Below are positions 16,589 through 60,355 of a stretch of 64,000 nucleotides of DNA, in pieces. This DNA comes from Zanthoxylum bungeanum. Taxonomy: Eukaryota > Streptophyta > Magnoliopsida > Sapindales > Rutaceae. The translations under genes were made by a program, and so were the position numbers. The DNA is taken from the NCBI GenBank assembly GCA_019454045.1, contig SKCR01021383.1:50931-114930 (forward strand), given 5' to 3'. The notes under the pieces are model-generated. The model was not told the DNA's origin and did not search any database. It worked only from the letters and a program-made list of their open reading frames with translations. Position 1 is the stretch's first letter, and each line of letters starts with the position of its first letter.

Positions 16589-16666
16589 TGTAACGACCGG
16601 AAATTCTGACTACTGATACACTGTGAGATGGGTGTTTCATAATATAAATTTTGAATGGAAACATGT
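16589..16666 (+). mobile_element. Solo chromovirus LTR, left 78 bp
   Basis: Starts TGTAACGACCGGAAATTC. The rest resumes at 36625 after the Tekay-like element. The total is about 2.61 kb with no internal region attached, so it is a solo LTR left by LTR-LTR recombination. CATGT at 16662-16666 is the target duplication of the inserted chromovirus. Confidence 0.8.
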
Positions 16667-18697
16667 TGTAACGACCCCAAATATTTTAGTTTGCCCGGTA
16701 ACGCGTAGGGATTTTATTTTCCGGGCAAGTAAATAATTTCCGGGATCGACTTAGAAATAACGAACAAGCACTCAATACCAAGCCCAATTTTCTTTCTTGG
16801 ATTTCTCTAAAGCCCAACAATCAAATAAAAGAAAAGAAGAAAGAAATAAGCCCAAGCCCAACAATCAATTAAAAGAAGAGAGAGAGCCCAAGGCCCAACT
16901 AATGAAATTCCTAAACTTTTCTAGAAACTTATTAAGTAATGGAAATAATAATAAAACAAAACAATTAATGAAGGAAATCATTTTTCTTCATTTCTTTTGG
17001 CAAAAATGTGAATAGAGGGAGAGAGAGAGAAGAGAGAGAGCAAGTTGTATTTTCTTGGTAAGAATCAAAACTTATCTAGAGTAAATCCATCAAAGTAAAC
17101 CTTAAGAGAAGAAATAGAAGAGCAGAGTGTTTTGTTAATGAGGGAAATGACATTGAAACAAGGTCAGGTTGCTTGACCCAACTTTGGTATTTTTGAATTT
17201 TGGTAGTTGGATGATTGCGGGTGAGGTAATGACTTGATAATAATGAAGTTTAGATGGTTTTGTGTTAAGGAAATGGGTGTTTGGGTAACTCTAGACATGT
17301 TATCCAAGTGTTTAATCTAGTAAGGATGATGGGATTTGATGGTGTTTGGATGTTAGAAGTCTGATATAATGAGAAATTAAATGTATATTTGCTTGTGGAT
17401 GTGTTGAAGATGTAATATTTGTTTGGTTTTGTGTGGGAATGGATTTGGAGGCTAGCCATGGAGAAACAAAATCTGCCCTTGGAAACGATGACGCGTCGCG
17501 ACACAGACGAGGCAGAGAGGTATAAAAGTTTAACATAGGCACGTCACGACGCGACGATCGAAAACCATAATTTTTTAGAAAATACACGCGTAACCAAAAG
17601 TCTGGATTTTTGTTTTACATTTCGTTTGAGGAATTGAAATGTTCTAATGGGGAAATGCAATTACGTTAAGCAATTTTATGTGATTAAGAATCGTATTTTA
17701 TAACTGATGATTCTAACACCATGTATTCTATATAGATACTCGTCAAGAGCCACGCTCGCCCCCAGCGACGTGAAGGAAACTTAGCTGGACTTCAAATCTA
17801 TGAGTGAAGATTTATTTTCTTATGAAATGATTCTATAATTACTTGCTTCAGATTAAAATTATTTCCAGATTTATTTTTCTAAAGTTTTAGGACATAAGCT
17901 TTATTTAAATAACAATTACTTACTAAATAACATTTGATTTTAGAGTTTTTGAATTTATCAGTGATGCTTTTATGTTTTCGAGGCATGAGGGAAAAACCCA
18001 CCTTAACTTTTACTTATGGAATTGACGAAAAGAGACCGCGTACACACGTAGTTCAGGACTAGGGGGACGACGATACGTAACGCCCCTTGACCCATAGTTT
18101 CATAACTTAGAGGGTAGTATAGATCTGCACCCCTAGTTCTAGATTGTAGCTTGGAAGACGGCGATACGTAACAACTTAAGACCACTAGTTTCAGGGACAT
18201 GAGTGGTATACTTTTTGGGACGGCGATATGTAACGCCCCAAAGTCATGGATTTACATTTCTGGCTCCAGATAGGCGTATGGGGGGACGACGATACGTAAC
18301 GCATCCATGCCTTTAGTTTTTCTACGGAACTAGAGTTATTTTTCTAAGAAATCTTTCAGAAAAATGTTTTCCAGTTAAAAGAAAAGAATGAGTTTCAAGA
18401 AAGTTTTCAGAAAATCTCTAAGTATAAATGGTTTCATATGATGTTCTGATTCAGTTTCTTATTTGGTAGCTCCACTCTCTGAGATCCTTTGGACTCACCC
18501 CACCATTTCCCAATTATTTTGCAGGATACTTCTTTTGGTGAGCCATGTGCCGTTTTGGAGACCCCAGTTCGAGGACAAGTGTTACACTGCAGTCACTAGT
18601 CATCGGGTCCATCATCCCATAGCTATATTCATCTAGAGTGTAGTCTTCTGAGGAGTCCTTTTGTTGTATTACTGACATGAGAGTGATGTTTTGTATA
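16667..18697 (+). repeat. Chromovirus 5' LTR, left part
   Basis: Begins TGTAACGACCCC and aligns with 34353-36400. GTATA at 18693-18697 is the target duplication of copia-2. It holds purine-rich and AG-rich stretches near 16990-17040 and a four-copy GACGRYGATACGTAACG motif array at 18060-18306. No gene. Confidence 0.9.
18060..18306. repeat. GACGRYGATACGTAACGCCCC motif array (5' LTR)
   Basis: Four copies near 18062, 18152, 18216 and 18280, with GGGG upstream and CCCC downstream in the better copies, so each can form a short GGGG/CCCC-closed hairpin around TACGTA. Counterparts are at 35779-36017 and 38247-38470. Confidence 0.75.
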
Positions 18698-20658
18698 TGT
18701 TAGACATTATGTCCCATAGCGTCACTGTTTGTAAATGATATGGTATTATTGTACAAAATTAACTATGTGATAATGAAATTGCCTTTTGCCGTTTTGTAAT
18801 ATTATTTACTTTGACTAATAAATGGCGAAAGTCCATATGATTAATACTGGATTGAGATGATATGAGACAGTATCAATCTGTAAAAGTTTAATCATTAAAT
18901 ATCCCTAGTCGGAGTATTATCGAGATCGGACATCGATAATGCGGAATAGACTAGTATTGCGCTTGTGCACGTTGTGAGGGCACAACAGCATAGTTCTCAT
19001 ATATTTAAGTATTGGATACTTATGCAAGTGCAATAGGAGGTTGTGTTTTACCGATGGTACGGAAAACAGCTTCGCTCTGGATAGACCCCGCGGAATCCCA
19101 TTGGTAGTATGTCTGCGTGTCTATGGGAGGCCGCATCAGGGTAGGTGTATATGGTCTTAACCTGAGACTTACATCGCTAGTACTTGCGACAATCGGTAAA
19201 CTTTGGTTTTGGTGGTTGGGGACCCTAACGGTTCTGTGTACACCTTTTCTGGGTTTATCGAGAATCGTAGTGTGCTGGATGTGATGTCAAGATGGAAGTA
19301 TCGCTTCAGACATATGGAGGCGATGATCACGCAGGGCACAGAACTAGTACTCTATAAAAGGTTGCAACCGTCGGGACAATATGACTAGGTCAGGATTGTC
19401 TGATTTAAAGAGACTAGCTGCTTGATGTCCGATATATGTTTCGTACGGGGCAGACACATCTCCAGCCCCAGGCCTAGCATGTGATCATCCGATACTGGAT
19501 CGATTTACGCAATACTACGGTATACTACGCCTGATACAGATCTTATATTCCTATTAGAATATTTCTGGAGAATTGGGTAGGCATGGCGCTTTGCTAGAAG
19601 CCAACCTTGTCTTGTGAATCGGTAAAGACGTAGTACGAGGTACGTACGTGTTCGGATTATCCGACGACCGTATTTACTGCCAAAATATCCGAGATCTCTT
19701 GGGTCGCTTCCTGAAGATTCACCTATGATATTTGATTCGAACTTAATTAATCTTGGATTAATTGCGGAGAAACTTTATCTCGGATAAAGTGCCTTATTTA
19801 GAGAGAGAGAGAACGATTAATTTGGAATTAATCGATATAATTATTATATTCGATATAATAATCGAAATTCGATTTCGACGCGAAATTAAAATTAGATTTT
19901 AATTCGGGCATACGAGTTAATTTAGAATTAATTCGTAAGCGACGTAAATAATAATTTCGCTAGGAGCGATTATTTATTTAAAATCGATTTAATTAACGTC
20001 GCGACGCTAGCTCGGTATTTCGGAAATATCGAACCCGAACGCGTGAGTGGACGTGGGCCCACTTTCATTGGGAAACGTGTGGGGCCCACATGACACTTGT
20101 CATTGATATGGCATTGCATGTTAATAGTGTACAAAACACTCTAAGGCATTGCATGGTGATAGTGTGCATTTCACTCAAAGGCTTTGCATGGAGTTTGAGT
20201 GTTTGACACTCTAAGCCATTGCATGGATTATGTCATAGATTTATTATTAATTTAATAAATTATAACATAAATATAAATTGATTTTTGGTAATACAAAAAT
20301 TAATTAATCAAAACTCTCTCTTCTCTCTCAAATTGCCGAAACTTCACCATTGAGGGCAAAGGAAGATTTGATCTTCCATTCTCCATTTTTGCTAGCACAA
20401 GCAAGGGATCAAAAGAGGTGATAGGGAAACCATCAAAGAGCTTGGAATACAAGAGCTTGGAGCTTGGAGTCTTCTTCCTCCTCTTGGCCGAAACCAACCA
20501 ACCAACTTGGAGCTTGGAGATTCAAAGGTTTTGTTCATCTTCTTCATCACATAACTTTGTAAGTATGATTCCGCCATGCTTCAAGTCTTTTATATATATT
20601 CATTTTAGTATTTCATATGTTTAATCTTTGTTTGGGACCTATATAATAGAAACCAACA
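18698..20658 (+). repeat. copia-2 5' LTR
   Basis: Starts TGTTAGACATTATGTCCC and ends AAACCAACA. It contains a TATA box, a cascade of inverted repeats (about 19740-20000), two GTGGGCCCAC-type sites (20053, 20079) and four TTTGCATG/ATTGCATG repeats (about 20110-20230). No gene. Confidence 0.95.
19353..19360 (+). promoter_or_regulatory. copia-2 TATA box (5' LTR)
   Basis: TATAAAAG, 655 bp into the LTR, conserved at 27632-27639 in the 3' LTR. Likely positions the U3/R boundary about 30 bp downstream. Confidence 0.65.
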
Positions 20659-20659
20659 A

Positions 20660-20673
20660 TGGTATCATTGAGC
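20660..20673 (+). other. copia-2 primer binding site (tRNA-iMet type)
   Basis: TGGTATCATTGAGC one base after the LTR end. It resembles the usual plant TGGTATCAGAGC site but has ATTG for AG at positions 8-11, so annealing to tRNA-iMet would be imperfect beyond the first eight bases. In copia-3 the site is TGGCATCAAGAGC. Confidence 0.75.
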
Positions 20674-20699
20674 TAGGTTTAAGCATGAAATACTTTAGG

Positions 20700-21270
20700 T
20701 TAAAATTTGGGTTAAATTGATTGAAGCATGTTCTTGTTGTGAAATTTGATGAATGAGTATGCTTATATGTATGTTAAATGACATTATATGAAATCAATTT
20801 TATGAAAAATGCATTGGATGATTTTTCCCCCAAATTTTGACCTTGGCCGAATGGGTGTGTTAAATTGATTAAAGCATGTTCTTATGAAATTTGATTAATA
20901 AGTATGCTTGCATGTGTATAACATGATGTTATATAGAATCAATTTTATGAAAAATGCATTGGATGATTTTTCCCCACCTTGGCCGAATGGCATGATGAAA
21001 TTGATATAAGCATGTTCTTATGAAATTTGATTAATAAGTATGCTTGCATGTGTATAACATGATGATATATGGAATCAATTTCATGAAAAATGCATTGGAT
21101 GATTTTTCCCCAAATCCATGCCTTGGCCGAATGTGTTACTACTTGGAGTAGATTGAAATTTTTTGTGTTTAAGATCATTAGATGACTTAGAACGTGTACG
21201 GGACGTAGATTAGTAATTCAATCGGATTGAAAAACAAATCGACACAAAAAACTCACCTTGGCCGAATGAA
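20700..21270. repeat. Leader repeat with ATGCATTGGATGATTTTTCCCC and CTTGGCCGAATG
   Basis: Three to four units of about 135-145 bp, with ATTGGATGATTTTTCCCC near 20814, 20958 and 21094, and CTTGGCCGAATG near 20844, 20979, 21122 and 21258. Inverted counterparts (CATTCGGCCAA) occur in the copia-3 leader near 60024 and 60173. The interval 21270-22350 is AT-rich leader without a recognisable gene. Confidence 0.7.
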
Positions 21271-22358
21271 CAAGGACATGAAATGGAGTTGAATTTTGAT
21301 AAAATTAATGTTGGACATTTAATTTGACAAATACATGATTAATAAATTAAATGGGTATTTTTGAAATATTTGGTTTAATATATTAATCTTGATATTACAC
21401 TTTAATTAATTGGACTTTAATGTTTGGAATATTAAAATTTATTAATGGGCTTTAATAATTTAATGGGCCTTATGGGCTTAAAATTGGTTTTATGGCACTT
21501 AAGGGTGATTCCTTATTTGGGCTTGGCAATTGGGTTTGACCCACATTGACCAAAAGCCCAAGCCTTAATAAATCAATTCTAAGCCCATTTGACTTGAATT
21601 AATTCAACATTGGATGTTAATTGGGCTTTGAGACCCAATAGGATTAGATTTAGAATCTAAGTCTTTAAAGCATATTAAAAGTGTAAACATTTGATTTGGA
21701 ATTAAATAATTGGATTAGTATTGAATACGAATTGAATTAGATTTAATTAGTAGTTCGATATAATTCGCGAATTCGTACTTTATGTACTTATTCTCAATCG
21801 AGTTGGACTCGCACAAAATCAAACCGTTGTTTGAACATTGGATGATCACTTTAAATAAGACTAATTAATTGGATAGATTGGTTGTAAAAGCATGTCTTGT
21901 TTGAATATATATGTATGTGATGAATGAATAGTGTATATCGGATGGATATTAGAAGGGAAAAGGGTAATTTTAGAAATTATTGTAAATTTGGAATTTATAA
22001 ATTGGACCTGCGTGTCCAGCCTTATCTCTTTATCTCTTTGTATTCTCTTCTCACCTAATTCCCCTCAATGTAAATGAGGTTTCTCTTATTGTATTATGTA
22101 ATTGGGTAGTTGTAGAATAGTGCTAGCGGGGAGAGGAAAGGGAGTGATTTGTTCTAGGAACAAGTTGTTTAAATATCCATCCGCATATCACTATTACTTT
22201 ACTTTACGCGCTTTATGATGTTTTAGAAGCATGCTTAAGGGTGTATGAAGATGAGACCTAACAAAGATAATAAAATTGGTTGCCAATTACGCGAAAAATC
22301 CCTCAAACAATATTAAGCGATTTTCCTTCCGTTGAATGATTCTTTCTCAAGATCCGAA

Positions 22359-22768
22359 ATTGGCATTGGTTTGTTGGCCAAAGTCAAGACCTTTGTCAAT
22401 TGAGGATGTGTTTGAATCATGAGAATTTTGTTACACATCGGTGTCCTGTCCAAGTTGTGATTTGTTGGCCAAAGTCAAGATCACTTCTTGTCCATCGACA
22501 TTGATTACGAAATTTTCTTGTCAATGGGTCCCGCTTAACTGGAATCATTAGGTTTGTTGTGCCAAAGCCAAGGCTTAGTTGATTCAGAGGAAATGGTTAG
22601 GAAAATGTATTGGATACATTGACATATGTATTAGATATATATGTTTTGAACTTGGATGTCCACCTAACCGGATCTAGGAATTGGATGGGATCCAATTGAT
22701 CTTCGAGATCTACCTAGTTAAATATCATACAACTTGTTGGCCAAAGTCAAGGTTGTGTGTTATTTAAC
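22359..22768 (+). ncRNA. Four-hairpin leader array (copia-2)
   Basis: Four stem-loops at 22359-22400, 22451-22490, 22542-22585 and 22717-22768. Loops 1, 2 and 4 are exactly TTGTTGGCCAAAGTCAAG. Loop 3 is TTGTTGTGCCAAAGCCAAG. Stem 1 pairs ATTGGCATTGGT with ACCTTTGTCAAT (TT/TT internal loop). Stem 2 pairs CAAGTTGTGAT with ATCACTTCTTG (again TT/TT). Stem 3 pairs 12 bp with one bulge. Stem 4 pairs GTTAAATATCATACAAC with GTTGTGTGTTATTTAAC, 16 of 17. The loop contains palindrome TTGGCCAA, which could let two RNAs kiss. The array lies about 250 bp upstream of the gag start. The same ordered array is in copia-3. The structure is seen by hand pairing; the role is inference. Confidence 0.7.
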
Positions 22769-23013
22769 AGGATCCTAGCCCACTAGGAAATTAGATTTCC
22801 CGAGTTGTCTACAGAGGGTTAGAAACTTGAAGAAAATAGTGGGAGGCTATTATTGAATTTGCAATTTCGTTCAGATACTTAGCCTTACGCGTCTTTCAAA
22901 AACATTTCGTCAATATTTTAATTAGTTGGACTAATATATTGTTATTTTTATTTGTAACAGTTTGACTGTACCCATAACATCGTTGACTTTATAGTTGGAC
23001 TATAGTTGTCAAG

Positions 23014-23730
23014 ATGATTGGCAAAGGTAATATCCGCGACATAATCATGGGTGATAATGTCTTCAGAGGGACAAACTTTGCCGACTGGGAAATGAACCTC
23101 AAGATAGTGCTTGGGGCTGAGAGGATACTGTATACTATTCAGAGACCTCTCCCGCCTAAACCCACTGAGCCACTGGAGCTAGAGTTATGGAAAACTCATA
23201 GTGATGATTGTGACCAAGCTCAGTCAGTTATGCTAGCTGCAATGACCCAGCATTTCAGACGCCAGAATAGGGACTTGGATCCCTATAACATGATGGCAAG
23301 ATTGCGTGATCTTCACCGCACTAATAAGCGGATGAAGAGGTACGAGCTAGTAAGGAAACTCTTCCGCTCCCGGATGACAGATGGCGCATCAGTTGAAGCC
23401 CACGGGGCTCAAATGATCGCCGATATTGATGAGTTGGCCAATATGGGAATAGTCTTGGAGGCTGAGCTGACTATAGATATGATCTTGCAGTCACTTCCTG
23501 ATACTTGGAAACAAATCATAGTCAACTACAAGTTGATGGATACAGATGACACTCTTGGAGAGCTGTTATCTATATTGAAGGAGTCCGAAAGGGAACTCCT
23601 AAAGGGGAGCAAGCGCGAGGCGCATTTTGCATCGACCTCTCATGCGCCAAGGGTGGCCCCAGGCAATTGGAGGTGCAAAGAAGAAGAAGTTCAAGAAAAA
23701 GGGCAAAGGCAAGTTGACATCTGCTTCTAG
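23014..23730 (+). pseudogene. copia-2 gag (N-terminal frame)
   Basis: ATG at 23014 opens 238 codons. It includes FADWEMNLKIVLGAER (UBN2/Retrotran_gag-type 'F.DW...L...L'), YELVRKLFRSRM, and LQSLPDTWKQIIVNYKLM, the typical copia gag 'LPESY..F...' region. The true product continues in another frame from about 23650, where a one-base shift leads into a lysine-rich stretch and the zinc knuckle. Gag assembles the particle and packages the RNA. The start was chosen because it is the first ATG of the frame, after a 2.3 kb leader, and the protein aligns from its N-terminus. Confidence 0.85.
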
Positions 23731-24247
23731 GAAGCCAAGGGACAAATCTCACGACATCTGCCTCAACTGCGGCAAGAGGGGTCACTGGAAACGTGACTGC
23801 CGAATGGGCAAGGGGCAGAAGGAGGATATCAAGGATGGCAAGGCTATCGCTTCTGGTATGTTTGTTATTGAGATAAATATGAATACTTCTAGTTTTAAAA
23901 ATTGGATTTTTGATTCTGGTTGTGGTGCTCATATTTGTACTGATGTGCAGGATCTGCAGGATAGCAGGGTGCTGGCATCCGGGGAGATGGATCTACGGGT
24001 TGGAAACGGAACACCAGTTGCTGTTTTGGCCGTAGGGACTTTTGTTTTAGAACTGCCCTCGGGGCATGAACTTAAACTTTTGAACTGTTATTATGTACCT
24101 AGTTTAACTAGGAATATTATATCTGTATCCTTGTTAACCCAGCAGGGTTACACTTTTGTATTCAGGAACACTGGGTGTTATTTATATAAAAATGATGCAG
24201 AAATTTGCACAGCTGTTGCAAATAACGGTCTTTATATTTTGATATAA
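23627..24247 (+). pseudogene. copia-2 gag zinc knuckle and protease
   Basis: Frame 2 stretch entered after the shift near 23650. A lysine-rich segment precedes the CCHC knuckle CLNCGKRGHWKRDC (23759-23800), which binds element RNA. The aspartic protease active site follows as WIFDSGCGAHIC (near 23904), with the catalytic Asp in DSG. Then come GNGTPVAVLAVG and LKLLNCYYVPSLTRNIISV, the standard 'VLYVP.L..NLLSV' protease-to-integrase linker. The frame is lost near 24240. Confidence 0.9.
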
Positions 24248-24308
24248 ATGAATCTCCTAAAATAACGAACAAAAGGCTCAAGAGAATAATCTAAAAGATG
24301 AAGCTTAT

Positions 24309-24980
24309 ATGTGGCATTGTCGTCTGGGACACATCAACAAGACTCGCATATCCACACTTTCGAAGAGTGGGTACTTGGACGAATTTGATCCCAATTCATA
24401 TGACGTCTGCGAATCTTGTCTTTTAGGCAAAATGCCTAAATCACCTTTTAGCGGTAAAGGTGAACGTGCCACAGAACTGTTGGCTCTTGTACATACTGAC
24501 GTATGCGGGCCCATGTCTGGCCAGGCTAGAGGTGGATTTCACTACTTCGTAACCTTTACAGATGATGCATCTCGTTACGGTTATGTGTATCTTATGAGAC
24601 ACAAGTCGGAAACTTTTGAGAAATTCAAAGAGTTTCGACACGAAGTGGAGAAACAAACAGGGAAGAATATTAAGACATTACGGTCAGACCGTGGTGGCGA
24701 ATACTTAAGTTATGAGTTTCAAGATTACTTGAAAGAATATGGTATTCTTTCACAGTGGACTCCTCCTGGAACACCGCAATTAAACGGTGTGTCCGAACGG
24801 AGAAACCGCACCTTGTTAGACATGGTAAGGTCAATGATGAGTCGCACTGAGCTACCAATATCCTTCTGGGGATATGCATTAAACAGTGCTATACTTATTG
24901 AAATAAGGTACCGTCGAAGTCTGTTGAACAGACTCCATATGAGATATGGACAGGAAGGAAACCAGGTTTCTCTTTCCTGA
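24309..24980 (+). pseudogene. copia-2 integrase (zinc and catalytic core)
   Basis: Begins with the HHCC domain (WHCRLGHI ... CESCLLGK), then the DDE core: HTDVCGPM (first Asp), LRSDRGGEYLS (second Asp), PQLNGVSERRNRTL (Glu). Integrase inserts the cDNA into the genome. The catalytic residues look intact. The frame breaks near 24900, after which the normal sequence continues in another frame (PYEIWTGRKPGF), and the remainder reads 9 off-frame codons to a stop. Confidence 0.9.
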
Positions 24981-25012
24981 AGATTTGGGGATGCTGGGCA
25001 TATGTTAAACGT

Positions 25013-26209
25013 TTGGAAGGTACCAAACTTGAACCCAAGTCAGATAAATGCCTTTTCGTAGGATATCCTAGGGAAACCAAAGGATATTACTTCTATCACC
25101 CACTAGAGAACAAAGTATTTGTTGCTCTACATGCGGTTTTCCTTGAGAAGGAATTCCTAAATGCAGTGGCAAGTGGGAGGAAAGTAGAACTCGATGAAGA
25201 TCGTAGTGATACTGTTCCTGGCAATGAATCAATGACGGAACATGAACAGACCATCCGGGATGAGTCTGTACCACAAACTTCACATACACAAGGACCGCGT
25301 AGGTCGGAGAGAGTCAGAACAATACCTGAGAGGTATGGGTTCCTGATCTCACCTCATGTAGATATTAATCTTATTGAGGATAATGAGCCGGCTACGTATG
25401 AGGAAGCGATACAAAATATCGATTCCGCTTTATGGCAAGAAGCCATGAAGTCCGAGATGGATTCCATGTACGCCAACCAAGTTTGGACACTGGTTGATGC
25501 ACCAGAAGGTGTGAAGCCTATTGGATGCAAATGGATCTTCAAGAAGAAGACCGACATGGATGGCAACGTACAAACGTACAAAGCTAGGCTTGTAGCGAAG
25601 GGGTATCGTCAACAATATGGTATTGATTATGACGAAACCTTCTCACCCGTTGCCATGATTAAATCCATTCGGATAATGCTTGCAATAGCTGCATATTTCG
25701 ATTACGAGATATGGCAGATGGACGTTAAAACCGCTTTCCTTAACGGAAACCTTTTGGAGGATGTTTATATGCAACAGCCTGACGGTTTTATCGTACCTAG
25801 ACTTGCAAACAAGGTTTGTAAGTTAAATCGATCCATTTATGGATTAAAGCAAGCATCACGGTCATGGAATCAGCGTTTTGATGAGATCATAAAGGAATAT
25901 GATTTCGTGCAAAACGCAGATGACCCTTGTGTATACAAGAAGGTTAGTGGGAGAGCACTTACTTTTATTGTCCTTTATGTCGACGACGTATTGCTAATAG
26001 GCAATGACATTCCCATGCTGACGTCGGTGAAAGCTTGGCTTTCATTAAAATTCTCCATGAAAGATCTGGGAGAAGCAGCCTTTATTCTTGGAATAAAAAT
26101 CTACAGGGATAGATCTAGAAAGCTGCTTGGACTCTCCCAGAGTACATACATTGATAAAGTGTTGAAGCGATTCAACATGGAACAATCCAAGAGGGGATTG
26201 GTTCCATGA
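25013..26209 (+). pseudogene. copia-2 integrase C-terminus and reverse transcriptase
   Basis: 398 codons open. It includes the end of integrase (CLFVGYPRETKGY), an acidic linker, RRSERVRTIPERYGF, then RT from WQEAMKSEMDSMY through GCKWIFKKK, YKARLVAKGY, DYDETFSPV, MDVKTAFLNGNL, YGLKQASRSW and the catalytic YVDDVLLIGND (near 25975-26007). The RT core residues are intact. The frame ends near 26200 with a shift; the next frame continues directly. Confidence 0.92.
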
Positions 26210-26899
26210 TGATACGAGGTACCTCTCTGTCTAAAGACATGTGTCCTAAGACTCAGGAAGAGAGGGACAACATGAGTCGGATACCGTTCGCCTCGGCAGT
26301 CGGATCGATCATGTATGCTATGATATGTACACGACCTGATGTCTCATATGCTTTGAGCATGTGCAGTCGCTATCAGGCCGATCCAGGTGAAGGTCACTGG
26401 ATAGCAGTTAAGAATATCCTTAAGTATCTTAACGAACTAAGGATGCTTCTTAATTTATGGAGGTGGAGAACTTGCGGTATCTGGGTATACCGATGCAAGT
26501 TTCCAAACCGACAAAGATGACTACAAGTCGCAATCCGGGTACATTTTTTGTTTGAATAACGGAGCAGTGAGCTGGAAATCTTCCAAGCAAGATACTGTTG
26601 CCGATTCAACAACAGAAGCGGAGTACATCGCTGCATCTGAAGCAGCAAAGGAGGCAGTTTGGATCCGAAAGTTCCTAATCGGATTAGGGGTAGTTCCGTT
26701 AGCAGCTGAGCCCGTTCCATTGTATTGTGACAATAACGGAGCTATAGCACAGGCTAAGGAACCAAGGTCTCATCAAAGGTCCAAGCATGTTCTTCGACGT
26801 TACCATCTGATTCGGGAGATTATACATCGTGGCGATGTAAAGGTCGAGAAGGTCACATCAGATGACAACATTGCAGATCGCTGACGAAGGCTGTTCTTC
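26206..26899 (+). pseudogene. copia-2 RT end and RNase H in broken frames
   Basis: 26206-26520 carries SLSKDMCPKTQEE, PFASAVGSIMYAM, RPDVSYALSMCSRYQ. After another shift, 26552-26884 carries GAVSWKSSKQDTVADSTTEAE (RNase H Glu), YCDNNGAIAQAKEP (Asp) and SDDNIADR. A TGA at 26882 replaces the expected 'ADP.TK' ending, probably by a small indel. Confidence 0.88.
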
Positions 26900-26964
26900 A
26901 GCAAGTTTTTGAACGACACATACATAGTTCGGGTATTAGATGCTTGAGTGACTGGCTATAGGCC

Positions 26965-26975
26965 AAGTGGGAGAT
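26965..26975 (+). other. copia-2 polypurine tract
   Basis: AAGTGGGAGAT directly before the 3' LTR start TGTTAGACA. Confidence 0.9.
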
Positions 26976-28935
26976 TGTTAGACATTATGTCCCATAGCGT
27001 CACTGTTTGTAAATGATATGGTATTATTGTACAAAATTAACTATGTGATAATGAAATTGCCTTTTGCCGTTTTGTAATATTATTTACTTTGACTAATAAA
27101 TGGCGAAAGTCCATATGATTAATACTGGATTGAGATGATATGAGACAGTATCAATCTATAAAAGTTTAATCATTAAATATCCCTAGTCGGAGTATTATCG
27201 AGATCGGACATCGATAATGCGGAATAGACTAGTATTGCGCTTGTGCACGTTGTGAGGGCACAACAGCATAGTTCTCATATATTTAAGTATTGGATACTTA
27301 TGCAAGTGCAATAGGAGGTTGTGTTTTACCGATGGTACGGAAAACAGCTTCGCTCTGGATAGACCCCGCGGAATCCCATTGGTAGTATGTCTGCGTGTCT
27401 ATGGGAGGCCGCATCAGGGTAGGTGTATATGGTCTTAACCTGAGACTTACATCGCTAGTACTTGCGACAATCGGTAAACTTTGGTTTTGGTGGTTGGGGA
27501 CCCTAACCGGTTCTGTGTACACCTTTTCTGGGTTTATCGAGAATCGTAGTGTGCTGGATGTGATGTCAAGATGGAAGTATCGCTTCAGACATATGGAGGC
27601 GATGATCACGCAGGGCACAGAACTAGTACTCTATAAAAGGTTGCAACCGTCGGGACAATATGACTAGGTCAGGATTGTCTGATTTAAAGAGACTAGCTGC
27701 TTGATGTCCGATATATGTTTCGTACGGGGCAGACACATCTCCAGCCCCAGGCCTAGCATGTGATCATCCGATACTGGATCGATTTACGCAATACTACGGT
27801 ATACTACGCCTGATACAGATCTTATATTCCTATTAGAATATTTCTGGAGAATTGGGTAGGCATGGCGCTTTGCTAGAAGCCAACCTTGTCTTGTGAATCG
27901 GTAAAGACGTAGTACGAGGTACGTACGTGTTCGGATTATCCGACGACCGTATTTACTGCCAAAATATCCGGAGATCTCTTGGGTCGCTTCCTGAAGATTC
28001 ACCTATGATATTTGATTCGAACTTAATTAATCTTGGATTAATTGCGGAGAAACTTTATCTCGGATAAAGTGCCTAATTAGAGAGAGAGAACGATTAATTT
28101 GGAATTAATCGATATAATTATTATATTCGATATAATAATCGAAATTCGATTTCGACGCGAAATTAAAATTAGATTTTAATTCGGGCATACGAGTTAATTT
28201 AGAATTAATTCGTAAGCGACGTAAATAATAATTTCGCTAGGAGCGATTATTTATTTAAATTCGATTTAATTAACGTCGCGACGCTAGCTCGGTATTTCGG
28301 AAATATCGAACCCGAACGCGTGAGTGGACGTGGGCCCACTTTCATTGGGAAACGTGTGGGGCCCACATGACACTTGTCATTGATATGGCATTGCATGTTA
28401 ATAGTGTACAAAACACTCTAAGGCATTGCATGGTGATAGTGTGCATTTCACTCAAAGGCTTTGCATGGAGTTTGAGTGTTTGACACTCTAAGCCATTGCA
28501 TGGATTATGTCATAGATTTATTATTAATTTAATAAATTATAACATAAATATAAATTGATTTTTGGTAATACAAAAATTAATTAATCAAAACTCTCTCTTC
28601 TCTCTCAAATTGCCGAAACTTCACCATTGAAGGGCAAAGGAAGATTTGATCTTCCATTCTCCATTTTTGCTAGCACAAGCAAGGGATCAAAAGAGGTGAT
28701 AGGGAAACCATCAAAGAGCTTGGAATACAAGAGCTTGGAGCTTGGAGTCTTCTTCCTCCTCTTGGCCGAAACCAACCAACCAACTTGGAGCTTGGAGATT
28801 CAAAGGTTTTGTTCATCTTCTTCATCACATAACTTTGTAAGTATGATTCCGCCATGCTTCAAGTCTTTTATATATTCATTTTAGTATTTCATATGTTTAA
28901 TCTTTGTTTGGGACCTATATAATAGAAACAAAACA
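26976..28935 (+). repeat. copia-2 3' LTR
   Basis: Matches 18698-20658 almost base for base. Seen differences include one substitution near 27157 (A versus G), an extra C near 27509, an extra G near 27970 and a different terminal A/C run. TATA at 27632-27639. Confidence 0.95.
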
Positions 28936-28940
28936 GTATA

Positions 28941-29154
28941 CACATTACATTTTACTTTGATCATGTATATATGCATGTTGTTTCTATTCATGATCTTGCA
29001 TCCTAGCTTATTAAGTATTCAAAATTGCATATGTGGTTTAGTGGATATTGCATAGTACGGAAATATGAAGCAAGTGTCCTAGTTCATGTGTAGAGGCTCA
29101 GCGACAGTGGGATCTTTTGCCTGCCGGTAACATTTCCGTATCGGGGATGTTACA
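28941..29154 (+). repeat. Chromovirus 5' LTR, right part
   Basis: Continues the LTR interrupted at 18697 and ends GGGGATGTTACA, the same end as the 3' LTR at 36624. Confidence 0.88.
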
Positions 29155-29158
29155 CAGA

Positions 29159-29170
29159 TGGTATCAGAGC
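29159..29170 (+). other. Chromovirus primer binding site (tRNA-iMet)
   Basis: TGGTATCAGAGC four bases after the LTR end, the perfect plant tRNA-iMet complement. Confidence 0.9.
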
Positions 29171-29364
29171 ATGGTCTAGGGAGTCAGTGACTGTAATAAG
29201 GGAGTAACAGTGGCTTGTATATGTGGTATATCTGAGGTACAACTATTTAGGAATGGTTGTTTACTCTAGTAACCTTGTCTCGAGATATGTCTTATTTTAA
29301 TTACTTACAATTCCTTTACATATAATTGACCATTTCTTTTTCTTTCTTAATTTCTTAGATATCC

Positions 29365-30660
29365 ATGCCACCCAATGGAAAAACTAGAGTCAGGGGTAGA
29401 CCCAGGTGTGGTAGGGAACATTAAGGCATAAATCTGGATCAAAGATCAGTAGTACCTCCCCCTGTGCCAGATAGAGGGCATAGAGTGGATTCTGTTCATA
29501 AGAGTGTTGTGGGGGAAGGTAGAGTTGTGCCAGTGGTTCAGTCCAATGACCCAGTAGTTGCGGGTTTACAGCTGATTCAACAGTCAGTAGCAGCTTTAGC
29601 CCAACTGATTACCCGTTAGCCGCAGCCACCAGGCCCAGATCCGAGAGCTGCAAAACCCACCATTCATGTTCCGCCACCACTAGTAGGAGTACCCATGGCT
29701 CACCAAATAGTAACTCCTCCAAATATACCAGACCCTACTACATACCGAGTCAGACCTTCTGTTATGCCTCTTGAGTCACCCCCATTGACGGTTCAGGTTA
29801 TGTAGCGACAAGAGCTACTTGTATCATTACATGACTTCCGGAAGCTTCATCCTCCCACGTTCTTGCGAGTAGAGACCTCCCCTGATCATTGTGGCATTAT
29901 TGAGGAGTCAGATAAGATATGTACAACTTTGGGATGTTCTTCGGAGAGAGGGGGTGGAATTAGTTAGTTTTCAGTTAAGAGATGTCGTCAACACTTGGTT
30001 TATGTCTTTTCAGGATGGTAGGCGATGAGACGCCCCTCCTCTGGCGTGGGCTGAGTTCAGTACGACCTTTTTGTCTAGATTTTTGCCACAAAGTATCAGG
30101 GATGCCAGAGCCCGTGAGTTTGAACAGCTAGTACATGGCGAGCAGATGACGATTTCTGAATATGACATATGGTTCACACTGTTGTCTCGCTATGCCCCAC
30201 ATCTGATTAATACTGAGAAGATGAAGGTGAAGAGGTTTGTAAACGGGCTTCAGGACTACTTATTTCACTCCATTCATTTTACAGAGACCACTACCTACAC
30301 CCAAGTTTTAGATGGTGCTTTACGATTTGAAGCGCGGGCTAGAGAAAGACAAGCAGAAAGGGAGTATCGAAAGAGACCTAGATCAGAGGAGAAGGTGAGG
30401 CCTCAACAGAGTGGGCCTAGTAGACAGCAGCAGATGTTAGCTCCGCCTACGGCACGTAGAGACCTGGGTTTAGTTGAAGGGGGTCAGGTCCGTAGGCCGG
30501 TTCAAAATGTTGCTTCTCGTGCAGTTTCCTCCCCCTTGGTAGCCCAGCCTGGGTAAACCCTACCGCAGTGTCCTGTTTGTGGACGAGCTCATACAGGGAC
30601 TTGTAGATCTGGGAGTAGGGGTTGTTATTGATGCGGACAAATGGTTCATTTGAAGAGAGA
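29365..30660 (+). pseudogene. Chromovirus gag, inactivated
   Basis: ATG at 29365 gives a proline-rich N-terminus. Premature TAA 29422, TAG 29617 and TAG 29803 occur in that frame. A one-base insertion in a G run near 29955 moves it to frame 2, where WAEFSTTFLSRFLP, FEQLVHGEQMTISEYD and FVNGLQDYL mark the gag core (30030-30330). TGA 30026, TAA 30554 and TGA 30629 follow. The last falls inside the zinc knuckle (CY-stop-CGQMVHLKRDC). Almost every stop is one transition away from a Gln or Arg codon. Confidence 0.88.
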
Positions 30661-31330
30661 CTGTCTGGTGCCAGCAGAGCAGTTGCCATCTTTCAGTGCC
30701 GCCCCATCTACACCCCAACCACAGCCTAACAGAAATGTAGGAGGAGGAGAGCAGAGGCCAGTGAGTAGAGGACAAACAATTGGTGGAAGGGAACAACTAG
30801 TTGGTGATCAGGGACAGGCTTCTTCCAGTAGAGTTAATGACAGGGTGTATACTCTTACTCCTCATGAGGCACATGCATCCAATTCAGTGGTCACAAGTAC
30901 ATTTTTGATTGATTCAGTGCAAACAAGAGTATTATTTGATTCAGGAGCTACACATTCCTTTATGGCACCGTGTTTTGTCACTCATATGGGTAGAAACATT
31001 GAGCTTTTAGACTCCCCTATCATTATAGCTACACCAGCAGGAGACCCCTTAGAAGCTACACAATGTGTGAGGCAGTGTTCTATAGATATTGACAGATACA
31101 TTTCCTATACCAATTTAATAGTGTTGGGTATTTTGAGCTTCGATATCATTCTGGGGATGGATTAGCTAGCTAGGCACCATGCATTACTTGATTGTATGGA
31201 GAAGATCGTTACACTACATGTTTCCGATAGACCGGTAAAAGTTTATCAGGGAGATAGAACAGTAGCGCCTCATAATTTGATATCAGCTATACATACATTT
31301 AAGCTACTTTAGAAGAGGAATATTGGTTAT
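30661..31330 (+). pseudogene. Chromovirus protease
   Basis: Frame 2 continues from the knuckle through a Pro/Gln-rich linker to VLFDSGATHSF (near 30930), the aspartic protease active site, then ILSFDIILGMD. TAG at 31163 replaces a Trp codon (the family has GMDWL) and TAG at 31310 a likely Gln. Protease would cleave the polyprotein. Confidence 0.88.
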
Positions 31331-32776
31331 TTGGCTTATGTGACTGATAGTAGAGCGGGAAATAAAGATCTTGAACAGATTTTAGTGGTGAATGAGTATC
31401 CTGATGTGTTTCCAGATGAGTTGCCAGGATTACCACGGGATAAAAAGATTGAGTTTTGTATAGACGTCTTACACAGGACGCAACCTATATCAATTCCTCC
31501 ATACATGATGGCCCATGCAGAATTCAGAGAGTTAAAGGCGCATTTGCAATACTTATTGGACAAGGGCTTTATTTGCCCCAGTGTGTCTCCATGTGGTGCT
31601 CCGGTGCTGTTTATGAGAAAGAAGAATGGAATTCTGAGATTGTGTATAGATTATCGGTAGTTGAATAGGGTAATGATCAAGAACAAATATCCACTGCCAA
31701 GGATTGATGATATATTTGATCAGTTGCAGGGGGCGCATTGTTTCTCAAAAATTGACCTGCGCTCGGGTTATCATCAATTGAAGATTATTGAGAGTGATGT
31801 TCCGAAGACAGCTTTTCGAACTAGATATGGGCATTACGAGTTCTTAGTGATGTCATTTGGTCTGACCAATGCCCCTGCAACATTTATGGATCTGATGAAT
31901 AGTGTGTTAAGACATTTTCTAGACCGGTTCGTGATAGTCTTTATTGATGACATTATGGTGTATTCGCGTAGTGAGCAGGAGCATGCATAGCATTTGCATT
32001 AGGTGTTGCAGACACTGAGGGAGTAGAAGTTATACGCCAAGTTCTCGAAGTGTGAGTTTTGGTTAAATAGTGTGGTATTTTTGGGGCACATGGTGTCCAA
32101 AGAAGGGATTGGAGTAGATTCTCAGAAGATTTAAGCTATTCAGAATTGGCATCGACCAAAAAGCGTAATAGAGATTCGTGGCTTCTTGGGATTAGCAGGG
32201 TATTATAGGAGGTTCGTAGAGAATTTCTCCAGACTAGCTGCTCCATTAACGCGGCTAACTTAAACGAATGTCAAGTTTGAGTGGTCTGATGCTTGTGAGA
32301 AGAGTTTTCAGGAACTCAATCGCCGATTGACTACTGCTCCTATTCTTGCACTGCCAGTGGGATTAGGAGGATTTACAATATATTTTGATGCTTCCAGAGT
32401 GGGTTTAGGCTGTGTATTGATGCAGAGAGTGAAAATAATTGCTTATGCCTCTAGGCAATTGAAGCTATATGAGCAAAATTACCCCACTCATGACTTGGAG
32501 ATGGCTGCAATTATTTTTGCTCTGAAGATATGGCGGCATTATTTATACGGTGAAAAGTTTGAAGTTTTCACCGATCATAAAAGCCTTAAGTACATCCAGA
32601 GCCAGAAGGATCTTAATCTGAGGCAGATGAGATGGGTAGAGTTGTTGAAAGACTATGATTGCTCCATTCAGTATCATCCGGGTAAAGCTAATGTTGTTGC
32701 AGATGCCTTTAGCAGGAAGTCTATAGTGAGTTTAGTTCATTTTCCGGTAGAGAGATGGCGCCCAGTCAAACATATA
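31331..32776 (+). pseudogene. Chromovirus reverse transcriptase and RNase H
   Basis: RT starts around YPDVFPDELPGLP (31390). CIDYR (31646-31657) is followed by TAG 31658 where the family has Gln. Then [28 protein letters not shown] and the catalytic FIDDIMVYS (near 31940). Stops TAG 31988, 32000, 32024 and TAA 32132, 32261 follow. RNase H from 32327 has [11 protein letters not shown], the [20 protein letters not shown] motif, and TDHKSLKY. The catalytic aspartates are visible, so decay is by nonsense rather than by loss of core residues. Confidence 0.92.
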
Positions 32777-33660
32777 TAGAGTTGTATGCTGGATGGAGTG
32801 AACTTCCAGGTGACGACAGAATGAGGGTTATTGGCACAGATTCAAGTTAAATCCACTCTTATTGATGAAATTAGAGTTGTACAGGAAGTAGATCCTGAGG
32901 TGCAACGGATTAGATGCCGATTACAGTAAGGTACTGAGGATGAGTATTATTTAGATAGTGAAGACGTCATAAGAAAGCAGAATAGAATTCTTGTGCCTCT
33001 TGTTCCAGAGTTGAAACACTCGATATTGGAGAAGGCCCATACTTCATCTTACATCATGCATCATGGGATCACCAAAATGTATCATGAACTTAAGGATCTG
33101 TATTGGTGGGATGGCATGAAAAATGATGTAGTTGAATTTTTCAGCAGGTGTCTCACTTGTCAGCAAGTTAAAGCTGAACATCAGAGACCAGCAGGAAATT
33201 TATAGAGTTTAGAGATTCCAGAGTGGAAATGGGAGAAAATCACCATGGATTTTGTCGTTGGGCTTCCGCGTACCTCAAAGGCATGTTATTCTATATGGGT
33301 GATCATAGATAGATTAACTAAATCATCACATTTTCTTCCAGTGAAGACTAGCTTTACAATAGCTCAGTCTGCCAAATTGTACCTAGATGAGATAGTGTCG
33401 TTGCATAGAGTACCTATCTCAATTGTCTCAAATCGAGTCTCTCAGTTTACCTCTAAGTTTTGGCAGTCATTCTAGGAGGCTTTGGGCTCACAGTTACATT
33501 TTAGTACAACTTTTCACCCACAGACCGATGGTCAGTCGAAGCGCACCATACAGACTTTGGAAGACATGTTACGAGCCTGTGTGATTGACTTTGAGGGTGG
33601 TTTGGATTGGTATTTACCACTCATAGAGTTCGCCTATAATAATAGTTATCAAGCAGTATT
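32777..33660 (+). pseudogene. Chromovirus integrase, catalytic residues altered
   Basis: Stops TAG 32777, TGA 32822 and TAA 32927 precede the HHCC domain (HHGITKMYHELKDLYWW ... CLTCQQVKAEHQ). TAG 33203 and TAG 33473 sit at positions where the lineage has Gln. The first catalytic Asp is in MDFVVGLP (33245). The second position reads [15 protein letters not shown], with Asn for Asp. The third reads [10 protein letters not shown], with Lys for Glu. Both are single G-to-A changes from the expected codons. A frameshift near 33660 moves to the last frame. Confidence 0.88.
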
Positions 33661-33666
33661 ATTCAA

Positions 33667-34311
33667 ATGGCATCGTTCGAGGCATTGTATAGGCGAAAGT
33701 GCAGATCACCAATGGAATGGTTTGAAGTCGGGGAGCAGAAATTGTTATGGCCGGATTTAGTACAAGATGTCGTGGAAAAAGTAAAGTTGATCATAGAGAG
33801 GTTGAATATAGCTCAGACTCGTCAAAAGAGTTATGCAGATCACTTGAGGAAGGATTTGGAGTTTCAGGTGGGGGATTTTGTATTTCTAAAGGTATCTCTT
33901 TTCAAAGGAGTCATGAGATTCGGTAAGAAGGGTAAACTTAGCCCTAGATTTATTGGACCGTTTCATATACTTCAGAGAGTTGGAGGAAGAGCTTATGAAC
34001 TGGTGCTTCCACCAAGTATGGATAGGATAAATCCGGTTTTTCATGTGTCTATGCTATGGAAGTACTTGCGAGATGAATCCCATGTGTTGGAGCCTCAAAC
34101 GGTTGATATCCATCAAGATCTGTCATATTCAGAACAACCGATGGATGTGGTGGGTAGAAAAATAAGAAAGCTACGATCTCGATGGGTTCTTTCAATCAAT
34201 GTGATTTGGCAGCATCACGAAGATCAAGAGGCTACTTGGGAACCGGAGGAAACTATAAGAGAGGAATATCCCCAACTCTTCGAGGATGAAGGTACATTTT
34301 ATATCCTTTAA
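33667..34311 (+). pseudogene. Chromovirus integrase tail with chromodomain
   Basis: 214-codon open end of pol: [50 protein letters not shown] (GPY/F module), AYELVLPPSMDRINPVFHVS, then the chromodomain YSEQPMDVVGRKIRKLRS through VIWQHHEDQEATWEPEETI. The chromodomain targets integration to heterochromatin and places this element in the Tekay/Del chromoviruses. The open frame ends in TAA at 34309. Confidence 0.92.
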
Positions 34312-34340
34312 GCATTTTGATTCGAGGACGAATCATTTTA

Positions 34341-34352
34341 AGGGGGAGAATT
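34341..34352 (+). other. Chromovirus polypurine tract
   Basis: AGGGGGAGAATT just before the LTR start TGTAACGACC, preceded by the common TTCGAGGACGAAT string of plant chromoviruses. Confidence 0.85.
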
Positions 34353-58233: not shown

Positions 58234-58632
58234 GTTAAATATCACACAATCTTGACTTTGGCCAACAATTGTATGATAATTAACTAGGTAGATCTCGAAG
58301 ATCAATTGGATCTCATCCAACTCCTAGATCCAGTAGGTGGACATCCAAGTCCCAAACATATATCTTATATATGCCTATACATCGAATGTATACCCTAACC
58401 TTTTTTCCTCTGAATCAACTAGGCCTTGGCTTTGGCACAACAAACCTAGTGATCCCAGTCAAGCGCGGACCCATTGACATGGAAGCTTCGTAATCAATGT
58501 CAATGGACAAGAAGTGGTCTTGACTTTGGCCAACAAACCACAACTTGGACACGACACGATATGGAACAAAGCCTCGTGATTAAAACACATCTTTGACGGA
58601 CAAGGGCTTGACTTTGGCCAACAACCCCTGCC
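58234..58632 (-). ncRNA. Four-hairpin leader array (copia-3)
   Basis: Minus-strand hairpins at 58599-58632, 58508-58547, 58412-58455 and 58234-58284, the same order and nearly the same spacing as in copia-2 (loop starts 88, 93 and 175 bp apart versus 91, 92 and 180). The loops are identical to those of copia-2, including the variant third loop. Stem 2 pairs CAAGTTGTGGT with ACCACTTCTTG, an A-T to G-C double change relative to copia-2. Stem 3 keeps all pairs with G-U/G-C exchanges. Stem 4 pairs GTTAATTATCATACAA with TTGTGTGATATTTAAC, 15 of 16. Confidence 0.7.
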
Positions 58633-60355
58633 AATCTCGGATCTTGAGTAAGAATCACTCAATGGAAGGAAAATAAACGCTTGATATTTAACGAGGGTTT
58701 TTCGCGTGCAAATTGGCTACCATTTAATTATCTTGTTAAGGTCCATCATCAACCACCCTTAACATGCATTCTAAATACATAATAAAGCGAGTATGAAAAT
58801 AAATAATAATGATATGCGGATGGATACTTTACACATTGATCCTAGATCATATCTCTCCCTTTCTCACTCAAGCTAGCACTTGTACTACTTCTACCCGTTA
58901 CACTACACTTCTAAAGAAACCTCATATACATAGAGGGGAATAGGTGAGAAGAGAATACAAGAGAAAGAAGGTGATAAGGCTGGACACGCAGGTCCAATTT
59001 AATAAATCGAATTTATTACAACAATTTCTAAAATTGCCCACCCATCTAATATCCATCCGATATACATTATTCATTCAACACAACCATGTATTCACACACA
59101 TAAGCATGCTATCAATCAATCTAATCAAATTAATTAATCTGATAATTAAGTGATCATCCAATGTTCAAACAACGATTTGATTTTGTTCGAGTCAAACTCG
59201 TTTTTGCGAATAAGTACTTAAAGTACGAATTCATGAATTAAATTAAACTACAAATCTAAATCTAATTTAACATGTATTTAATACTAATTCACTATTCATT
59301 CTAGATTAAATATTACACGTTTATTTAATAAACCTTTTACGATTTAAATTCCAAATCTAATCGTAACGCGTCTCAAAGACCGATTAACGTCCAACGTCAA
59401 TTCAATAAAGTCCAATGGGCTTTGATTGATTTCTTAGGCGGGACTTTTGGTCAACTCGGGTCAAACCGATAACCAAAGTCCAATCCGGGATTTACCCACC
59501 CCATAAGCCCATAAATCAATCTTGGCCCATTAGGCCCAATTGAACTTAAAAGGTTCATTAAGTCGCATTTGGGCTTTATGTCAAGTTTTTGGGCCCAATT
59601 GGATCCAATCCATTTGGCCTAAACCAAACTTGATAATCAAGCCCAATAGCCCCAATTACAACAATTCAAGTCCAAATCCAATTTAAAGCCTAAATAATTA
59701 AATTACACTAATCCAATTACGCAATTTAATTACCTAAAGTGCATTATATGATTAATCGACTACTAAATTTATATTTCCGAAGCACCAAATTCGTCCAATT
59801 AATCATGCTTAATTCATTATCATATGTCCAACACACAAATTGAAAATCAAACCCATAAACATGCTTCAATGCTCTCGGCCAAGGAAGGTTTTGTTATTTT
59901 GTCCGATTTGAATTCAATCCGATTAATTACACAATTGACAACGTATTAACTTCCCGAATGATTTCATACACATCCAATGTTCATAAAATCAAAATTACCA
60001 AGACATTCAATAGGGCTATACATTCGGCCAAGGTGAAGGAAATTTGGGGATTTTTTGTTCAATTCAAAATTCAATCAAATTGACTTCAAATTACATCATC
60101 CTATATCATTATAAAAATAACTCATCCAATGAATTTTAAATGAAAAATTCCAAGAACTCCAAGACTCCTACACATTCGGCCAACATGAATAAATTGGGGA
60201 AAATTATTCCAAATCAATTTTCAACAAATTGGTCCAACCAAAATGCAATCAAAACATGGTATAAGCATACTTAAACAATCAATTTATTTCAAATCATGCT
60301 CAACAAACATTTCCCCAAATTTTAAAACCCTAAAATTTTCATGCTTGCAACATTA

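Follow-up and report, generated by a model that had tools for sequence, protein, structure and literature searches.

The host element and the place of the array

The 64,000-nt stretch of Zanthoxylum bungeanum DNA analyzed here, called the window (all coordinates are positions in it, unless a copy name of the form L0xx is given), contains a Copia element, E1 (18698..28935, + strand), whose leader carries four hairpins with a common apex. E1 is delimited by a pair of long terminal repeats (LTRs; 18698-20658 and 26976-28935, +, 99.4% identical over 1,959 aligned LTR columns) and by a GTATA target-site duplication read from the letters (18693-18697 and 28936-28940), and Pfam domains occur in its open reading frames (ORFs) (PF14223, PF13976, PF00665, PF07727). 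The gag ORF (23014..23730, +; PF14223, E 5.5e-15) is followed by integrase (24309) and reverse transcriptase (RT, 25013), with pol split across several ORFs. The LTRs, a Copia-type gag, and an integrase upstream of an RVT_2 reverse transcriptase are those of a Copia LTR retrotransposon. The primer-binding site TGGTATCA... (20660..20673, +), which we take to be of the initiator-Met type, starts one base past the 5′ LTR. The leader is 2.36 kb long, and the order along it is the one expected for a packaging element, with the primer site (20660), then the array (22313-22846), then gag (23014).

A diverged element, E2, lies on the − strand (LTRs 60370-62454 and 52462-54492, 92.7% identical) and has four hairpins in the same order (58237..58638, −; apices 58624 to 58251). 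No gag is detectable in the stretch of E2 searched (best tblastn match 10 residues, E 5.0). Between E2 and E1, the differences in pol at codon positions 1/2/3 are 0.26/0.26/0.28 in the RT frame, 0.25/0.26/0.33 in the integrase frame, and 0.35/0.27/0.40 in the frame preceding the integrase frame.

Four hairpins with a common apex

An initial annotation of this DNA had placed an array of four repeated hairpins in a copia leader, between primer site and gag, and the array is indeed present (22358-22771). An 18-letter motif occurs exactly at 22371, 22462, and 22734, and its variant TTGTTGTGCCAAAGCCAAG, the third member as had been described, at 22554. The motif with at most three mismatches is found six times in the window (0.04 expected by chance), three of them in E2 on the minus strand. 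All hairpins of E1 are on the + strand. Hairpin 1 (22358..22401, apex 22371-22388) and hairpin 2 (22437..22505, apex 22462-22479) are held in a closed domain (22313..22538, +) by basal helices 22313-22319/22532-22538 and 22328-22335/22521-22528, followed by two long arms. Hairpin 3 (22542..22585) has the variant apex (22554-22572), with an extra base and C for U at motif position 14, and hairpin 4 (22713..22771) has its apex at 22734-22751. A 3′ flanking stem-loop domain (22774..22846, +), including a small hairpin (22786-22800), is predicted from both the E1/E2 and the 45-copy alignments described below, with partners of its outer 5′ strand that differ between the two.

The arms pair as the initial annotation had it: 10 bp with a TT/TT internal loop in hairpin 1, 9 bp with TT/TT in hairpin 2, 12 bp with one bulge in hairpin 3, and 16 of 17 in hairpin 4. 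In all eight hairpins of the window the pairing is better than in shuffled sequence (p 0 to 0.0085, 2,000 flank shuffles each). A test of place is weaker, with 1 to 39 of 2,260 or 2,390 leader positions scoring equally (own place counted).

The predicted fold of the eight hairpins consists of the arm helix, a U·G pair between motif positions 1 and 18, a UG bulge, a UUGGC/GUCAA helix with an inner G·U, and a CAAA tetraloop. The bulge has two bases, except in hairpin 4 of E2 where it has one, and in hairpin 3 the helix is UUG-U-GC/GCCAA with a bulged U. The initial annotation had drawn an apical loop exposing the 8-nt palindrome TTGGCCAA; the bulged CAAA fold is better than that fold by 3.9-4.8 kcal/mol in seven of the eight hairpins. 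The exception is hairpin 4 of E2, whose arms are displaced by one base, so that neither of the two fixed structures scores well. Where the motif is exact (six hairpins), CAAA alone is unpaired (P 0.98-1); G6, G7, and C8 have a pairing probability of about 0.98-1, and U4 is free with P 0.31-0.48. In the predicted monomer, the intramolecular stem takes up half of the palindrome's eight letters. In hairpin 3, the extra base and the C at position 14 abolish the palindrome and turn the G·U into a G-C pair, and the stem is kept.

Compensatory changes in the stems

The exact motif occurs 193,312 times on both strands of the 3.96-Gb genome (51,709 contigs), against 2,234 occurrences of one single-mutant apex and none of a reversed control pattern. 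From 100 listed motif places, 46 stretches were fetched (2.2 exact copies per stretch); by extrapolation, the genome would hold on the order of 90,000 arrays. The alignment comprises 45 arrays (mean identity 0.893), namely 43 of the fetched stretches, E1, and E2; L073, L084, and L092, with matches under 540 nt, were left out.

We followed the 123 pairs predicted from E1 alone and also from E2 alone. Mapped on the tree, their two-sided events are 22 compensatory and 4 disruptive, with 0-4 and 3-12 in slid controls; for slid pairs with a standard majority (37-51 pairs), there are 0-3 compensatory and 0-4 disruptive events. Standard cells with two changes number 111 (7-24 in slid controls), and only 78 of 5,286 cells are non-standard, against 749-1,206 of 2,633-3,425. 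Examples are the pairs 22314-22537 (UA36/UG3/CG5), 22336-22420 (AU9/GC21/GU15), 22360-22399 (UA22/UG5/CG16), 22460-22481 (AU25/GC18), and 22733-22752 (UA24/UG4/CG15). The initial annotation had named a lack of excess compensatory change as what would refute its hairpins; for the pre-specified pairs, the excess is there in the 45 copies.

Comparisons within the window give the same picture. Treated as paralogues, the eight hairpins have a covariation score of 0.455 (0.236±0.043 in shuffles; slid versions at most 0.283), 84.4% of paired cells (72.2±2.9), and 22 cells with two-sided change (10.6±2.3), and none of 500 shuffles is as high in any of the three measures. When E1 and E2 are compared on a structure derived from just one of the two, compensatory changes account for 10 of the 12 two-sided changes in either direction (1.6 and 1.8 at random), and 14 and 10 pairs are broken (31.6 and 33.1 at random). 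In the domain of hairpins 1 and 2, the compensatory counts are 6 of 6 and 6 of 7. With a joint fold of E1 and E2, two of ten windows have more compensatory changes than any of 100 column shuffles, namely the array (10, highest shuffle 8) and an adjoining leader window (17, highest shuffle 16).

Conservation of the apices and strand preference

The apices of E1 and E2 do not differ at any of 73 positions, whereas the rest of the array differs at 82 of 468 (Fisher p 4e-6). Across the 45 copies, minor letters make up a mean fraction of 0.019 in the motif columns and of 0.076 elsewhere. Hairpin 3, whose variant was not used in picking the loci, is similarly conserved: its extra base is U in 38 copies and A in 7, and C stands at position 14 in 42 (2 gaps, 1 U), versus U in 45 of 45 for each of hairpins 1, 2, and 4. 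The array as a whole has 75 mismatches in 541 positions between E1 and E2, against 421 in 1,516 for three pol windows (p 2e-11). A protein-coding leader was considered and set aside: 8 of 10 E1-E2 gaps in the array are of 1 nt, and stops occur in all frames.

In those helices that occur on both strands, one-change cells are G·U 41 times and A·C 18 times (18 and 12 distinct kinds), and G·U cells in the E1/E2 fold number 39 in the sense and 12 in the antisense. The antisense structure is weaker than the sense one, yet present (two-sided changes compensatory in 8 of 9 and 4 of 7). Sense RNA is mildly favored over antisense.

Carriers without signs of coding selection

The 5 kb downstream of the array were read for 40 of the 43 aligned genomic copies. 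DNA similarity to gag is found in 12 (gag+ below) and not in the other 28, of which 11 are without any tblastn trace of gag. Three of the 28 (L056, L062, L078) and three of the 12 (L051, L080, L094) have no pol within 5 kb; some genes may be masked there, by truncation or by a nested insertion. In the RT frame, E1 and eight gag+ copies differ by 0.084/0.055/0.167 at codon positions 1/2/3, and this third-position excess is, at the level of sequence, a mark of coding selection. No such excess exists among the 24 E2-like RT segments compared, all from array-carrying copies: the values are 0.159/0.156/0.157 for E2 against 19 other E2-like copies, 0.109/0.101/0.099 within those 19, and 0.148/0.115/0.124 within four copies grouped by hand with E2. 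In-frame RT stops number 3-15 in E2-like copies and 0-6 in gag+ copies. E2-like copies thus carry the array with no sign of coding selection on pol. Divergence of the array stays below that of pol in three comparisons: E2 against the 19 copies (0.091 versus 0.157), the 19 among themselves (0.078 versus 0.103), and gag+ against E2-like copies (0.129 versus 0.237).

Because the four sampled copies most similar to E2 in pol (L066, L074, L083, L085; 86-92%) all lack any gag trace, we infer that the loss of gag is best placed before their transposition. Elements of the E2 type kept their LTRs, the primer site (seen in E2), and the leader array, and such array-carrying non-coding elements must have used proteins in trans. 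The 28 of 40 copies without gag DNA similarity correspond to the retention, without an own Gag, expected for a packaging element.

Longer gag traces, of 188 and 195 residues with 45-47% identity to E1, occur in L101 and L113, downstream of the E2-like L055 and L067, which may represent an intermediate lineage. In L069 (739-1979), exact motifs are at 739, 1194, 1285, 1888, and 1979, and the part with hairpins 1 and 2 is apparently duplicated.

Other features of the leader and the window

A second array, of triloop mini-hairpins with core AGT-TKG-ACT, stands just before gag (22921..23004, +). Three mini-hairpins lie there (as many in 2 of 1,000 shuffles), and E2 has 12 in 400 nt (0 of 1,000). 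The stems vary, with AGT/ACT and AAT/ATT forms in E2. Strict AGTTKGACT occurs four times on the + strand of the window, always in the E1 leader (21801, 22924, 22959, 22993), and on the − strand at 59198, 58072, 58034, 57840, and 57119, with no other places. In 39 of 40 genomic copies, at least one AGT-TKG-ACT hairpin follows within 700 nt past the array.

Further upstream, a 22-bp long-range helix (21928-21950 with 22172-22194) encloses about 220 nt of leader and, in the E1/E2 comparison, is kept in E2 with one two-sided and one one-sided compatible change. The repeated motif CTTGGCCGA occurs at 20842, 20978, 21122, and 21257 and in the LTRs (20483, 28761) on the + strand, and at 60032 and 59883 on the − strand, partly in 136-bp tandem repeats; the upstream leader is otherwise poorly alignable between E1 and E2. 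TTGGCC is common to this motif and the apices, and the two could pair with each other. At the junction of LTR end and primer site, the letters CCAACAA (20653-20659) complement UUGUUGG, with which the apex begins, and do so in both elements; this may be due to chance. The LTR start (18700-19250), one LTR control window of the covariation analysis, has a compensatory excess between E1 and E2 in one direction. The LTR of another element holds a hairpin (47381-47428, E 0.0022) whose tip has 18 nt instead of 8 and which was taken as chance.

E1 adjoins one LTR copy (16666-18690) of another element, the second LTR copy of which is at 34352-36403. The flanks 28936-29156 and 36404-36626 are similar, and E1 looks inserted near the LTR end of that other element (16666-36626). 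The ORFs at 30071-34311 we take to be Gypsy-like.

Possible function of the array

The array is structured, its apices are conserved, and it is present in copies with neither gag DNA similarity nor signs of coding selection on pol. Judging from these sequences, we favor, with modest confidence, the view that it is a cis-acting packaging element, most likely of sense-strand RNA, recognized in trans. Four stem-loops of free sequence each display one fixed apex (U·G, UG bulge, UUGGC/GUCAA, CAAA), with the stems held by compensatory change and the apex by its sequence. A fixed apex on free paired stems, repeated four times, reads as the signature of a recognized RNA hairpin, and because carriers without gag DNA similarity keep the array, the recognition most likely serves the RNA as cargo. 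The apices would serve for the docking of a trans-supplied protein, most likely Gag or nucleocapsid of autonomous copies, and several hairpins acting jointly might single out the full-length RNA as the one to be packaged into virus-like particles and reverse-transcribed; RNA dimerization is possible alongside. Packaging was among the roles that the initial annotation had suggested for the repeated RNA structure lying past the primer site and before gag, and in this respect the annotation is supported. A wider proposal, which we hold to be somewhat less likely than not, is a multi-hairpin packaging code in plant Copia elements, in which the bulged CAAA hairpins and the UGG triloop array next to gag would be read by Gag in trans; their retention would have let a non-coding parasite lineage become widespread and thereby contribute to shaping a 4-Gb plant genome.

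Several observations weigh against a packaging element. When all 160,461 pairs are tested for covariation against 60 tree-based nulls, none reaches E <0.05; the top pair, 22597-22602 (E 0.47), is outside the structure, and the best structural pair is 22460-22481 (E 0.55). As the copies are so alike, the structural claim rests on the pre-specified pairs: on these, conserved and covarying stem-loops, as expected for a packaging element, are found, and the unrestricted test is negative. Of the one-sided events in the 123 pairs, 114 are compatible and 120 disruptive (38-81 and 222-262 in slid controls), a balance to be expected if many copies decayed after insertion. Hairpins 3 and 4 alone have no two-sided E1-E2 changes. 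Some control windows also have an excess of compensatory changes between E1 and E2, with 9 of 15 (p 0.0005) and, in the reverse direction, 6 of 13 (p 0.067) in one LTR window, and as many as 12 of 17 (p 0.010) and 11 of 13 (p 0.016) in pol windows. Folding-energy z-scores were dropped as evidence, with −14.6 for a pol control against −11.5 for the array, and LTR controls also extreme. The loci were picked by the exact motif, which inflates the conservation of the apices in hairpins 1, 2, and 4, not in hairpin 3. The strand bias, itself mild, is compatible also with a role of the DNA. Within the gag+ group, array and pol have diverged equally (0.100 and 0.103). Weak tblastn traces of gag remain in 17 of the 28 copies (47-195 residues, 29-47% identity), and an outright loss of gag in the whole E2 lineage, once considered, has been softened on that account.

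Recognition by a host RNA-binding protein, or a control of transcript export, stability, or translation (for instance, shunting over an AUG-rich leader), is unlikely, if the least so of the alternatives. A sequence-fixed apex on free stems would suit any RNA-binding protein, and the 77 ATGs within 20654-23013 would make simple scanning to gag improbable. However, the array is kept in non-coding copies without gag DNA similarity, in which gag translation would not be under selection, and control of gag translation, a role raised in the initial annotation, is disfavored for this reason. An export or stability role is possible.

The initial annotation had also proposed dimerization, the TTGGCCAA loops of hairpins 1, 2, and 4 kissing within or between RNAs, which we hold to be slightly less likely than a host factor. 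The palindrome is present in three of the four apices and identical in E1 and E2, and palindromic loops are used by retroviral dimerization initiation site hairpins, according to passages of PMC5874298. However, an apical loop exposing the palindrome, as in such a site, is not found in the predicted monomers, where it is half paired, and hairpin 3 lacks it in both lineages, which leaves kissing through a palindromic apical loop unsupported. For the four E1 hairpins, the gain predicted on homodimer formation is equal with or without the palindrome (−5.1 to −5.7 kcal/mol), in a prediction that covers extended duplexes only, the program being unable to represent kissing loops. Outside the palindrome, GUCAAG is about equally conserved (14 changes in 6 columns versus 14 in 8, 135 hairpins).

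A repeated regulatory motif acting in the DNA is improbable. Its reverse strand, CTTGACTTTGGCCAACAA, contains TTGACT, presumably W-box-like, and an enhancer reportedly lies in the untranslated leader of Drosophila copia. Clustered, repeated, sequence-fixed motifs are typical of transcription-factor sites, with the palindromic motifs of Sireviruses as a further precedent (passages of PMC2829016). Yet such sites do not need pairing arms and the arms covary, hairpin 3 is without TTGACT, and deviations are, mildly, more often G·U than A·C. Least probable of all is the absence of selection, in a young hitch-hiking sequence whose similarity between E1 and E2 would come from an exchange of leader and LTR by recombination between the lineages. 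Recombination could explain why pol is more diverged than the array and than two of the three LTR windows, but the divergence along the leader is uneven (per 100 columns, between about 55-60% and 7% are non-identical), and neither the compensatory excess nor the unchanged apices would be expected.

LTR retrotransposons make up much of plant genomes. The array, with its defined apex, is an evolution-supported candidate for RNA selection by plant LTR retrotransposons. With hairpin 3 as a natural variant, and autonomous-type and non-coding carriers in one genome, packaging, trans-mobilization, and non-autonomous spread become directly testable.

Comparison with known systems

No Rfam 15 family matches 20600-23100 at gathering score; the only match among those listed up to E 5 is mir-374 (21.2 bits, 54 needed). 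In viral contigs the exact motif is absent, a loose pattern gives 31 stretches with one match each, and an RT search found no relative. In bacterial and archaeal genomes, the motif is present in 11 stretches, one match each, with about 7-8 expected by chance (our own estimate, 18 letters in 257 Gb). The 18 gag homologues found are all on contigs of 560-1,527 bases, without DNA context. Among the PMC matches listed, mostly titles and the starts of abstracts, none describes such an array in the leader of a plant retrotransposon.

Retrozymes are non-autonomous plant retroelements with a functional RNA structure, the hammerhead ribozyme (PMC4918200); here, neither a hammerhead nor another Rfam family was matched. 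Repeated motifs with dyad symmetry also occur in non-coding regions of plant Copia elements, the Sireviruses, where the passages of PMC2829016 place them upstream of the LTR TATA box (in two elements also at the env gene), mostly with a CGG-CCG core, and discuss them as transcriptional. The motif here is in the leader and without a CGG-CCG core in its letters (the LTR itself was not scanned for such motifs).

The nearest functional parallel, with no descent relationship claimed, would be the dimerization and packaging domain of murine leukemia virus, with stem-loops SL-A to SL-D, of which SL-C and SL-D share a conserved apical GACG tetraloop (passages of PMC5874298). The likeness is in several stem-loops near the 5′ end with a common apical loop; unlike there, the four hairpins are in a plant Copia element and have a longer bulged apex with a CAAA loop, and the palindrome is half buried in the predicted fold. 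In barley, RNA of the Copia element BARE2 is packaged by BARE1, and fairly little is known of the selection of own RNA by other elements (passages of PMC3735527). A repeated hairpin array is absent from those passages, and the non-coding lineage here has, in addition, a decayed pol; nevertheless, the E1-like and E2-like copies seem to form a comparable pair, which makes BARE1 and BARE2 the nearest biological parallel.
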